A DNA stretch of 35,584 nt from a virus: the IMG/VR virus record IMGVR_UViG_3300042453_002007, positions 1 through 35,584 of that record; one strand, given 5' to 3'. Under the pieces are notes generated by a model. The model made no database searches. It had not been told where the DNA came from and saw only the letters and a list, made by a program, of their open reading frames with translations. A program made the translations under genes and the position numbers. Position 1 is the stretch's first letter. Each line of letters starts with the position of its first letter. Of the stretch, positions 1,986 to 5,300 are shown piece after piece.

Positions 1986-2168
1986 TTACGAGTTGCTTGC
2001 TTTTTGAACCAACTGATGAGGTTGGCCAGTGGCCATTTCTGCCAGTGCCAACTTACATCGGTCTGGTAAATTGGTCTCTGCTGGGTTAATCGAAATCAAT
2101 TCCCCATCCACTCTTTTGTAATGCCCCACAATTCGAAGCGGTTCAGCTTGTTTTCTCGATCTACCCAT
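1986..2168 (-). CDS. Hypothetical small early protein
   Basis: A 60-residue basic protein (starts MGRSRKQAEPLRIVGHY) with a strong ribosome site (GAAAGGAGGG) ahead of ATG 2168. It is the first gene downstream of the probable early promoter at 2233-2261. No domain is recognised. Position and size would fit an accessory regulator, but that is only context. Confidence 0.65.
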   Translation of the reverse strand: MGRSRKQAEPLRIVGHYKRVDGELISINPAETNLPDRCKLALAEMATGQPHQLVQKASNS

Positions 2169-2265: not shown

Positions 2266-2451
2266 TTAAAAAAATAACTCGTCAAGCGAGCTGTTAAACA
2301 AATCTGCAATTTTTCGCATCAATTCGATTCGAGGCTGACGCTTCTTTGTCTCATAATGCGAATAGGTCTGCACTCTGATTCCAAGCTGATCTGCAACTTG
2401 TCTTTGAGTCAACATCATTTTTTTTCTTTTTTGTCGAAGCGGACTCTCCAT
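2266..2451 (-). CDS. Cro-like XRE-family regulator
   Basis: A 61-residue helix-turn-helix protein with the core TQRQVADQLGIRVQTYSHYE (about 15-34), close to a whole HTH_3 domain with almost nothing else. Start ATG 2451 is chosen because AAGGGAG precedes it. The frame stays open upstream for 58 more codons, but that stretch holds the promoter and operators. It is divergent from the repressor at 2643, the classic Cro/CI arrangement, and heads the early operon. Its role as the lytic-side regulator is inferred from position. Confidence 0.85.
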   Translation of the reverse strand: MESPLRQKRKKMMLTQRQVADQLGIRVQTYSHYETKKRQPRIELMRKIADLFNSSLDELFF

Positions 2452-2484
2452 TATGTCACTCCCTTCAGTTGATGTTACAAACAA

Positions 2485-2513
2485 ATTATAATCCACAAAT
2501 TGTTGCATTGCAA
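2485..2513 (-). promoter_or_regulatory. Promoter of the Cro-like gene
   Basis: TTGCAA (2513-2508), a 17-base spacer and a perfect TATAAT (2490-2485). The spacer contains a TGTTG operator half-site (2501-2505), so a bound repressor would cover the promoter. The leader to ATG 2451 is about 30 bases. Confidence 0.7.
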
Positions 2514-2642
2514 GACCATTTTCGACAATAATCAACATTTTGTTTACAACATTTTTCGACAAATTGGAATACACTATTTGTTGCTCGTAAAATTTATCAA
2601 CATATTGTATACTTATAAGACACATTATAAGGATGTGATTTT

Positions 2643-3002
2643 ATGGTTGGTGAAATGATTCGAAAACTAAGAACTCAAAAAGGTTGGAGACAATCAGAGT
2701 TAGCCGAACGGATGGGTATATCGAGGCAAGCCTTATCAAATTATGAGTTGAATCGCCGAGATGTAGATAATGATTTATTGAAAAGATTTGCTGAAATATT
2801 TAACGTGCCTGTAGATTTTATTTTGCAAGTAGAAATTAAAAATGTAAGCCTTGAAGAACTAGAAAAAATATTTGAATATGAAATTGACATTTCTCTAGAT
2901 GAATTTGAAAAAAAACACAAATTACTCGTCGATGGAAAGATCCTCAATCGGAAAGAAATTCAAGCTATTCTGGCTTTCATCAGATTCCATCGATCTCAAT
3001 AA
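2643..3002 (+). CDS. Phage repressor, XRE family, without peptidase domain
   Basis: A 119-residue protein with an N-terminal helix-turn-helix (GWRQSELAERMGISRQALSNY, about 14-34 with flanking residues) that would hold the lytic promoters off during lysogeny. The ribosome site AAGGATG precedes ATG 2643. The C-terminal part (about 65-119) is acidic then helical, ending in a segment of the LLVDGKILNRKEIQAIL type that is common in short Bacillota repressors. No S24/LexA-type self-cleavage domain is present and the length leaves no room for one, so inactivation must work by another route. Its last 81 bases are overlapped antisense by the ORF at 2922-3077. Confidence 0.85.
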   Translation: MVGEMIRKLRTQKGWRQSELAERMGISRQALSNYELNRRDVDNDLLKRFAEIFNVPVDFILQVEIKNVSLEELEKIFEYEIDISLDEFEKKHKLLVDGKILNRKEIQAILAFIRFHRSQ

Positions 3003-3077
3003 TTCTTGTAGTTGTTTATATGTAATATTATTTCTTTTATAAAACTCTTCTGAAAAATGTTCTAAGTTAAAAACCAT
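2922..3077 (-). CDS. Candidate SOS-induced small antirepressor, antisense to the repressor
   Basis: A 51-residue acidic ORF (starts MVFNLEHFSEEFYKRN) with a proper ribosome site (GGAGG, 9 bases before ATG 3077). It lies on the minus strand and overlaps the repressor 3' end. A LexA box and an extended -10 promoter sit immediately upstream. Small LexA-controlled antirepressors that bind a non-cleavable repressor are known in Salmonella prophages. Here the repressor also lacks a peptidase domain, so the same logic fits. No sequence match to a known antirepressor is claimed. Its transcript would also be antisense to the repressor mRNA. Confidence 0.6.
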   Translation of the reverse strand: MVFNLEHFSEEFYKRNNITYKQLQELLRSMESDESQNSLNFFPIEDLSIDE

Positions 3078-3107
3078 TCCAAAATTCCTCCACAATTAGA
3101 TATGCGT

Positions 3108-3138
3108 AGTATACCACATGAATACGAACTTGTGTTCG
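3108..3138 (-). promoter_or_regulatory. LexA (SOS) box with extended -10 promoter
   Basis: CGAACTTGTGTTCG at 3125-3138 is a perfect palindrome in its outer arms and matches the Gram-positive LexA/DinR box CGAACnnnnGTTCG. Reading minus, 11 bases downstream is TGGTATACT, an extended -10 (TATACT at 3113-3108). The box covers the place of the -35, so LexA would block the promoter. The transcript would start near 3101 and enter the 2922-3077 ORF. The box lies 55 bases before the integrase start on the other strand and might affect that gene too. Confidence 0.75.
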
Positions 3139-3192
3139 CTTTTCGGAAAAAAAATTTCCATTTTATACTTATTTATAAAGCAGGTGCAGAAA

Positions 3193-4620
3193 ATGAATGT
3201 TGCAGCTTATGTGCGAGTTTCAACAGAAGAACAGGCCGAGAAAGGAAACTCGATTTTTGAGCAACAAGAGCGTTTGACTGCTTATTGTAGGGCGATGGGT
3301 TGGGAACCTCCAACCTTCTTCGTAGACGATGGATTTAGTGCCAAAAATTTAAAACGGCCGGCCATTGCCGATTTAATCAAACGCGTTCGCAAAAAAGAGT
3401 TCCAGATTGTGCTTGCGACAAAGCTGGATCGCGTTTGTCGTAACCTGCTTGATCTGCTTCAACTGGTAGATGTTCTTGAACAATATGAGTGCAGTTTTGT
3501 TTCAGCTTCCGAATCGTTTGATACTTCAACGGCTGCTGGTAGGATGACGCTTAATCTGCTTGGTATGTTCGCACAATTTGAACGTGAGCGCATTTCAGAG
3601 CGTGTGAAGGATAATATGATTTCCCTTGCTAAAAACACTGACAAGGCACTGACTAGGCCTTGTTTTGGTTACGTTTTAATAGATGGGAATTTTGAGATTG
3701 ATGAAGTAGAAGCAGAACACGTTCGTTTCATGTTTGACCAAGCGGAGCAAGGCCGAGGGACAAGATATATTGCAAAGTTATTAAACGAGAAAGGAGTAAA
3801 AACAAAACGAGGTAAGTTATGGGATTCAGTAAATGTCAAAAGACTTATGATAAACGAAACTCTAACGGGTTCAAAAGTGTTCAATCGTCGTAAAAATCTG
3901 AAAGGGAAAGTTCAGATCCGAGACGCCAACGATTGGATAGTCAAAGACAATAGCCATCCAGCCATTATCTCAAAAGAACAGTTTGATTTGGTGCAAAAGA
4001 TTTTTAACAGTCGCAAACCCACTCGAACCAGAGCGGAAAGTGAAACGTATTTATTGACTGGAATCATTTATTGCAAATACTGCGGCGGACGAATGAAAGG
4101 AAATACGGCTCGGCAAAAACACGGAACGTATCACAATTATCTTTGCTCAAAATATGTACTCGGTTACGGATGCCAAAATCATTCTGTCAATCGTGACCGA
4201 ATCGAACAATTGGTGATTGAACAAATCAAGCAATTAAGCCAATTTAGCGACGTGGAAATCGAGAATGTTGTCGGGAAGTCCCGTTCGGCACAAGACGAGA
4301 TTCAAGCAATAGAAACGGCCTTGTCAAAAATAAATAAACGAATGCAAAAACAGATTGAAGCGTATGAGAATGATTTGATTTCCATGCATGATTTAAAAAT
4401 GGCACGCGAGCGTATTGATCAAGAACGTCAGCACTTGGAATTGACGTTAGATGAATTGAAATCAAAAGAAGTAAATGCCGCTCAATTTCGCAAAACCATT
4501 TCAAGCCAGCTGGACGATGTTTCAGGAACAGACCGTATAAAAGCAAAAAAATCGATGCCACTACTCATCGATCAAATCATAGTAGAGGCGCCGAACATCG
4601 AAATTATATGGCGTTTTTAG
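3193..4620 (+). CDS. int: Large serine integrase (site-specific recombinase)
   Basis: A 475-residue large serine recombinase that inserts and, with a directionality factor, excises the phage. The resolvase domain holds the nucleophile Ser10 in AAYVRVSTEEQ, the catalytic-domain stretch KLDRVCRNLLDLL (77-89) and FERERISERVKDNM (129-142). It is followed by a recombinase domain (about 150-260), a zinc ribbon with C294, C297, C318, C327, and a coiled coil (about 365-430) typical of this class. Start ATG 3193 is chosen because the reading begins with the canonical catalytic N-terminus. The longer frame from 3118 would translate the LexA box. A probable attP follows directly behind the stop. Confidence 0.95.
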   Translation: MNVAAYVRVSTEEQAEKGNSIFEQQERLTAYCRAMGWEPPTFFVDDGFSAKNLKRPAIADLIKRVRKKEFQIVLATKLDRVCRNLLDLLQLVDVLEQYECSFVSASESFDTSTAAGRMTLNLLGMFAQFERERISERVKDNMISLAKNTDKALTRPCFGYVLIDGNFEIDEVEAEHVRFMFDQAEQGRGTRYIAKLLNEKGVKTKRGKLWDSVNVKRLMINETLTGSKVFNRRKNLKGKVQIRDANDWIVKDNSHPAIISKEQFDLVQKIFNSRKPTRTRAESETYLLTGIIYCKYCGGRMKGNTARQKHGTYHNYLCSKYVLGYGCQNHSVNRDRIEQLVIEQIKQLSQFSDVEIENVVGKSRSAQDEIQAIETALSKINKRMQKQIEAYENDLISMHDLKMARERIDQERQHLELTLDELKSKEVNAAQFRKTISSQLDDVSGTDRIKAKKSMPLLIDQIIVEAPNIEIIWRF

Positions 4621-4661: not shown

Positions 4662-4739
4662 AGACAAACAGATTTTCATTGCTTAAAAAATTGATTTAGT
4701 TTATTCTAATTTTACCATAATTTGAAGGAGTTGAGTGAT

Positions 4740-5300
4740 GTGGGTGAAAAAAAGTTAGCCAAGTTTTTACTGGTTGGAATTGTAGGTTTTGTGTTTTTCA
4801 TTATTGTGATTTCAGCCGTTGTATCCGTACTTGAAGAATCAGATACAACTGTAACAAAAAAACAAGAAGCCGTTGAAGTGAAAAAAGAAAGGGAGGTTTA
4901 TCCTGCTCTCATTTTAAAAGCGATTAAAAATCTAGAAACAAGCAAAGAGACAAAAACGGTTCGCTATCAATTATTCGATCAGGAAGTAATCAAAGTCATT
5001 CAGTACAAACCGACCGATGAAGATTTAGAGTTTTATAAAAAATTTGTTTTTGCAGATTATGAAAAAATGACTTTTGATTATGTGCAAACTTTAAACGATG
5101 AAGAACTGCTAAAAATCATATTTCGCAATCGGCCTGTTGATTTGTATTATGTCCATCGTGAAATGTACGGCGATCCGCTTGGCGGTCTCGCTTATAACGT
5201 TATTCAAATTGCAAAAGAACAATATGAAGGAACTCTCAATCAAGAGAATTATGATATTTTCAAAATGACAATGGATAAGCATTTTGAAAATATCGAATAA
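4740..5300 (+). CDS. Membrane-anchored extracytoplasmic protein, possible lysogenic conversion gene
   Basis: A 186-residue protein with a lysine-bearing N-terminus, one hydrophobic helix (about 8-29) and then a soluble, charged, helical domain, so it is probably anchored with the C-terminal part outside. Start GTG 4740 is chosen from AAGGAG nine bases upstream; TTG 4722 precedes that site, and ATG 4738 is in a frame that stops at once. It is AT-rich, in the same orientation as the integrase, and lies between attP and a convergent terminator. Genes in this place are often expressed from the prophage and change host surface or superinfection. No family is recognised. Confidence 0.75.
   Translation: MGEKKLAKFLLVGIVGFVFFIIVISAVVSVLEESDTTVTKKQEAVEVKKEREVYPALILKAIKNLETSKETKTVRYQLFDQEVIKVIQYKPTDEDLEFYKKFVFADYEKMTFDYVQTLNDEELLKIIFRNRPVDLYYVHREMYGDPLGGLAYNVIQIAKEQYEGTLNQENYDIFKMTMDKHFENIE

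Follow-up and report, generated by a model that had tools for sequence, protein, structure and literature searches.

How prophages of Gram-positive bacteria sense DNA damage when their repressors cannot be cleaved is poorly known. The question is raised by the window, i.e. the whole 35,584-nt stretch of virus DNA analysed here, in which the gene of a short repressor meets tail to tail a 51-codon open reading frame (ORF) that an earlier note had proposed to be an SOS antirepressor. A LexA-controlled inactivator gene in this arrangement would offer a simple and testable answer for one class of such prophages. The ends of the 35.6-kb virus record (positions 1-364 and 35221-35584) overlap by 364 nt at 94% identity, and the record is therefore read as the near-closed circle of a temperate phage, assembled from at least two mixed strains.

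The lysogeny module consists, in order, of a cro-like gene (minus strand), operator-like palindromes, the repressor gene (plus strand), the 51-codon ORF (minus strand), a LexA box and a serine integrase gene (plus strand). Its GC content is about 31%, compared with 44% for the whole record, a contrast that suggests exchange of an AT-rich lysogeny module. According to the ORF list and a family search, the first gene of the leftward early operon encodes a Cro-like Xre protein of 61 aa (2266-2451, minus strand). A motif search located the palindrome CAACAWWTTGT repeatedly around cro and the repressor promoter (2218-2608), and a family search identified the integrase (3193-4620, plus strand) as a large serine recombinase. 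Behind cro, the early operon encodes a 60-aa protein (1986-2168, minus strand) that belongs to no NCBIfam family and is found at the same place in the integrase relatives L002-L005, L008, L010, L011 and L017-L020. Directly after the integrase gene, at the usual site of a lysogenic conversion gene, a 192-aa protein with an N-terminal hydrophobic segment is encoded (4722-5300, plus strand), for which no significant family match was obtained.

The repressor (2643-3002, plus strand) is an Xre/ImmR-like protein of 119 aa, assigned by profile and structure-database sequence matches. That is, its helix-turn-helix (HTH) resembles that of ICEBs1 ImmR (E=3e-9), and the protein matches the 129-aa regulator 9sf2 along its full length. 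It had been described as lacking an S24 domain, which is borne out: in profile searches with positive controls, no Peptidase_S24 match was found in the repressor or anywhere in the record, and no ImmA metalloprotease (Peptidase_M78, PF06114) was found in the record at E≤10. By these profiles, the known route of self-cleavage is closed to the repressor, and the record encodes no known inactivator. No close repressor relatives were found in IMG/VR, and AlphaFold modelled the repressor too poorly for the model to be used. The 11 closest relatives of the integrase, which come from Paenibacillus, Cohnella and IMG/VR phages and are about 50-65% identical in the best segment, have an S24 repressor gene directly before int and lack a LexA box. 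This phage therefore has a LexA box and an ORF where the cleavable domain is missing.

The promoter elements named by the earlier note were all recovered. Direct reading and a motif search placed a perfect Gram-positive LexA box, CGAACTTGTGTTCG (CGAACN4GTTCG), at 3125-3138; it is the sole perfect match in the 35,584-nt window, where about 0.03 would be expected (35,584/4^10), and relatives with two mismatches occur there in a number at chance level. The minus strand reads CGAACACAAGTTCG-N11-TATACT with TGG ahead of the -10, followed inside 50 nt by GGAGG and ATG. The extended -10 TGG-TATACT (3116-3108, minus strand) is thus 11 nt from the box, which places the box at about -37 to -24, over the -35 hexamer of a leftward promoter with a predicted start near 3101. 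The ribosome-binding site (RBS) GGAGG (3091-3087) and the ATG (3077-3075) open the ORF in the direction of this promoter, and its stop ends at 2922. When the sequence following the box was subjected to 20,000 dinucleotide shuffles, 0.43% of them yielded a suitably spaced extended -10, 0.065% yielded a Shine-Dalgarno (SD) motif with an ORF of 50 codons or more, and none yielded the two together (0/20,000). From this geometry and these chance tests, predicted LexA control of the promoter reading the 51-codon ORF is well supported. In IMG/VR, the pattern LexA box-N9-13-TGNTATAMT was found in only seven records, corresponding to three independent places, all within other genes. The composite-promoter matches L179-L185 were rejected as parallels owing to this location, and the exact-box matches L187 and L189 were rejected as chance.

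The motif search detected no CAACAWWTTGT palindromes near the LexA promoter, so that the SOS promoter does not appear to be under the control of the repressor. On the minus strand, no terminator was found from the ORF stop to the repressor start and on to cro, and the leftward transcript could therefore extend further antisense; its RNA folding is unremarkable (z -0.75).

The ORF itself (2922-3077, minus strand; ORF list) would encode an acidic protein (pI 4.4), which AlphaFold models as two helices with modest confidence (pLDDT 66), too weakly for fold searches. The description of the ORF as antisense to the repressor gene was right in that the overlap is real, but overstated, as the two genes are convergent and, by their coordinates, share only 81 nt at the 3′ end of the repressor gene (2922-3002). 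Homologues of the 51-aa product were found neither in IMG/VR nor in phage and plasmid records, 396 Paenibacillaceae genomes or the PDB, and there is thus no evolutionary evidence for protein-coding status. The L098 match (E=0.008), located in a frame of 393 aa, was dismissed as chance. The product has no significant Pfam, PHROGs or NCBIfam family and no DinI/Tum family match, and residues 14-40 have a weak, sub-threshold HTH-like resemblance to DUF6471 (E=0.003). Antirepressor small ORFs (smORFs) of Vibrio phages are also reported to be without homologues (PMC10432266), so that orphan status is no strong argument against function.

The reading that we favour, with a probability of roughly 0.55, is that LexA derepression releases a small orphan antirepressor which takes the functional place of ImmA and leads to induction. 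In the lysogen, the 119-aa repressor would keep the leftward early operon off from cro onward via the CAACAWWTTGT operators, and host LexA, occupying 3125-3138, would block the leftward promoter at 3108-3116. Upon DNA damage LexA would be cleaved and the promoter would fire, yielding a short-leader mRNA from which the 51-aa acidic protein would be translated; this protein would then induce the phage by inactivating the repressor, to which it would most likely bind directly. It would stand where ImmR-type modules have ImmA and the closest integrase relatives have the S24 domain, and the 51-codon gene is probably what brings the virus out of dormancy. We prefer this reading because box, promoter, RBS and ORF line up, a combination not expected by chance; because S24 and ImmA are missing from the record and LexA boxes recur in the same slot; and because predicted boxes in that slot drive ImmA (seven loci) or small convergent ORFs (L274, L226, L123 and L132). 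The S24 repressors and missing LexA boxes of the 11 closest integrase relatives, the joint change of ORF and repressor behind a conserved leader in L123 and L132, and the lack of the operator motif at the LexA promoter also speak for it. Counted against it are the orphan status of the ORF, the obligatory antisense overlap, the modest structure model, the nearness of the box to the integrase gene and the boxes found at the integrase elsewhere. The proposal that the ORF is an SOS antirepressor is partly supported, by the S24-less repressor, the predicted LexA control and the recurrent slot; translation of the 51-aa product, its binding to the repressor and its role in induction are putative.

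The recurrence of boxes was assessed with relatives of the repressor sought at E≤1e-9 in 399 Bacilli genomes, whose fetched flanks gave 58 usable loci; a LexA box was called when at least nine of the ten positions of the GAACN4GTTC core agreed. There were 8 boxes at 0-600 bp from the repressor stop on its 3′ side, which amounts to 34.4 kb, whereas the remaining flanks, 141 kb in all, had 2 (Fisher P=7e-5). When all fetched loci were pooled, covering 165 short non-S24 Xre proteins and with the window included, 15 boxes were counted in 97.8 kb of the 3′ bin against 6 in 286 kb elsewhere, with 1-3 boxes in each equal control bin, and a LexA box was present in the 3′ bin of none of the S24 repressors (0/22). 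The P value was still 0.002 in a conservative count that excluded the window, related pairs and doubtful sites, L040 (box inside immA) and L031 (box without a clear target) being left out. Predicted LexA boxes repeatedly occupy the stretch directly 3′ of short non-cleavable repressors. The full-length Bacilli matches L190-L206 represent a Paenibacillus gene of the chromosome, next to a large ORF resembling glutamate synthase, and were rejected as phage loci. Chromosomal orthologues likewise overwhelmed a second search for the repressor, made in Paenibacillaceae.

What these boxes would drive differs among the comparison loci, in all of which LexA sites were assigned from sequence only. L222, L240, L245, L250, L262, L266 and L268 each have a box 17-42 nt ahead of a Pfam-confirmed ImmA gene that follows a short ImmR-like repressor gene, which suggests that the ImmA anti-repressor protease is under direct LexA control there. 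L274 comes very close to the arrangement seen in the window: a box, an N11 spacer and the extended -10 TGGTAAAAT (TGG-TAAAAT), with the same box-N11-TGG spacing, precede an RBS and an ORF for an acidic protein of 65 aa, which runs towards the repressor gene. L226 has the order of the window, i.e. repressor, convergent ORF (73 aa), LexA box and serine integrase. No homologues of the L226 and L274 convergent ORFs were found in the other genomes or phages searched. In L123 and L132, a LexA box and a conserved leader precede unrelated small ORFs (PHROG 27026 and 19170, respectively) that are convergent with two unrelated short repressors, so that the leader is common and ORF and repressor differ together. 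The small convergent ORFs of these four loci are mutually unrelated. In L006 and L275 the LexA-linked ORF near the short repressor encodes an HTH protein. The regions L123:3580-4427 and L132:2328-3106 look like a swapped ORF-repressor cassette behind the common LexA leader.

LexA-like boxes were also observed directly before integrase genes, at L137:1056-1069, L146:4160-4173, L158:1101-1114 and L226:2720-2733 as well as in L275; in L137, L146 and L158 the box is at the integrase RBS, behind ImmR-ImmA. This suggests that integrase expression may be SOS-controlled in several prophages, and it bears on the window, where the box lies upstream of the integrase gene, 55 bp away, and at about -51 to -38 relative to a candidate integrase -10, TATACT (3164-3169, plus strand; direct reading). 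The box could then mainly control the rightward integrase promoter and time excision to the SOS response, the leftward ORF being incidental. We regard this as unlikely, since the box sits exactly over the leftward -35 but upstream of the integrase -35, whereas it adjoins the integrase RBS in the other phages; moreover, the S24-type relatives of the integrase have no LexA box, and the prophage would be left with no visible SOS switch for its repressor. It is similarly improbable that the leftward SOS transcript rather than a peptide silences the repressor, by antisense RNA pairing or transcriptional collision, perhaps reading into cro and the early operon. The obligatory 81-nt overlap and the stretch between ORF stop and cro, in which no minus-strand terminator was found, would fit such a role, but a good RBS and a 51-codon ORF, a combination reached in 0.065% of shuffles, would be superfluous, and occupied operators would hinder read-through. 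Furthermore, the parallel loci overlap by 4-6 nt (L226 and L274) or not at all (L123 and L132), and yet all four retain an RBS and an ORF. Both alternatives, the main rivals of the antirepressor model, are compatible with it, and control of the integrase and control of the ORF are not mutually exclusive.

The small SOS-induced protein encoded by the ORF might also be real but serve a different purpose, for example as a toxin, as a Cro-like partner or in modulating the SOS response or division of the host. The HTH-like resemblance of residues 14-40, although below the cut-off, and the HTH proteins of L006 and L275 point in this direction; we nevertheless give it little credence, as the ORF adjoins a repressor otherwise without an inactivator in the record and related modules hold ImmA in the same slot. 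Least credible of all is that a LexA-like palindrome and an ORF arose by accident in AT-rich sequence. The missing homologues and the low GC content of the region (about 31% versus 44%) would be compatible with chance, but no shuffle in 20,000 reproduced the joint arrangement, the box-promoter pattern occurs at only three independent places in all of IMG/VR, and LexA boxes recur in the same slot of other phages.

The antirepressor reading has precedents, of which the earlier note had named the small LexA-controlled antirepressors of Salmonella prophages. These are established: Gifsy GfoA, GftA and GfhA and Fels-1 FsoA act on short non-self-cleaving repressors, and induction needs LexA cleavage (PMC3121763). 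The window resembles them in pairing a LexA-controlled small ORF with an S24-less short repressor, as predicted here from sequence alone. It differs in that the antirepressor of Gifsy is encoded outside the immunity region, behind a homologue of dinI (PMC3121763), whereas the ORF of the window runs towards the repressor gene and shares its 3′ end, in a phage of Gram-positive type; no sequence relation was detected, GfoA/GftA and the 51-aa product being set apart via family profiles rather than by one-to-one sequence comparison. In coliphage 186, LexA likewise represses a phage gene, tum, and the Tum protein inhibits the repressor of that phage (cited in PMC12637031). The window shares with it a LexA box at the gene of a candidate repressor inhibitor and departs in genome position and host group, with no homology seen with the DinI/Tum profiles.

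ImmA is the known anti-repressor of ImmR, and for ICEBs1 ImmA, activation by RecA or RapI is described (PMC11841131), in the case of RecA without a settled mechanism. As in the ICEBs1 module, an ImmR-like repressor gene is followed in the window by an inactivator gene (here a candidate) and then int, but ImmA is absent and the slot holds an ORF of predicted LexA control on the opposite strand. The TF-smORF modules of Vibrio and Aeromonas phages also employ phage-specific small proteins without homologues to inactivate the cognate cI, driven by a phage transcription factor and independently of SOS (PMC10432266). The small protein of the window is similarly an orphan and a candidate repressor inactivator; in contrast to those modules, LexA control is predicted, and the divergent neighbour is the integrase gene, with no transcription factor gene adjacent. 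By analogy, the window is a candidate functional counterpart of the Salmonella antirepressors in a Gram-positive-type phage, set apart from them by the convergent layout and the orphan protein.

More tentatively, and with somewhat less than even confidence, Firmicutes phages and elements with short non-cleavable ImmR-like repressors may have in common a LexA-controlled 'SOS slot' immediately downstream of the repressor gene, filled by interchangeable inactivators that are either ImmA or small convergent orphans changing along with the repressor. The window would then carry one such orphan antirepressor, and LexA-ImmA would be a direct SOS link in some modules. In the open-access literature, to which the search was confined, we found neither ImmA under LexA control nor a small LexA-controlled antirepressor of a Gram-positive phage described, and the wider predicted pattern was not found there either. 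As the boxes recur in the slot, often before ImmA, the prediction is general and can be checked in model strains. A further variant was observed in L208 (repressor on the plus strand), where a prophage-encoded LexA-like S24 protein (2272-2799, minus strand) is convergent with the short repressor, and a LexA-like box, AGAACAAACGTTCC (2844-2857), lies just upstream.
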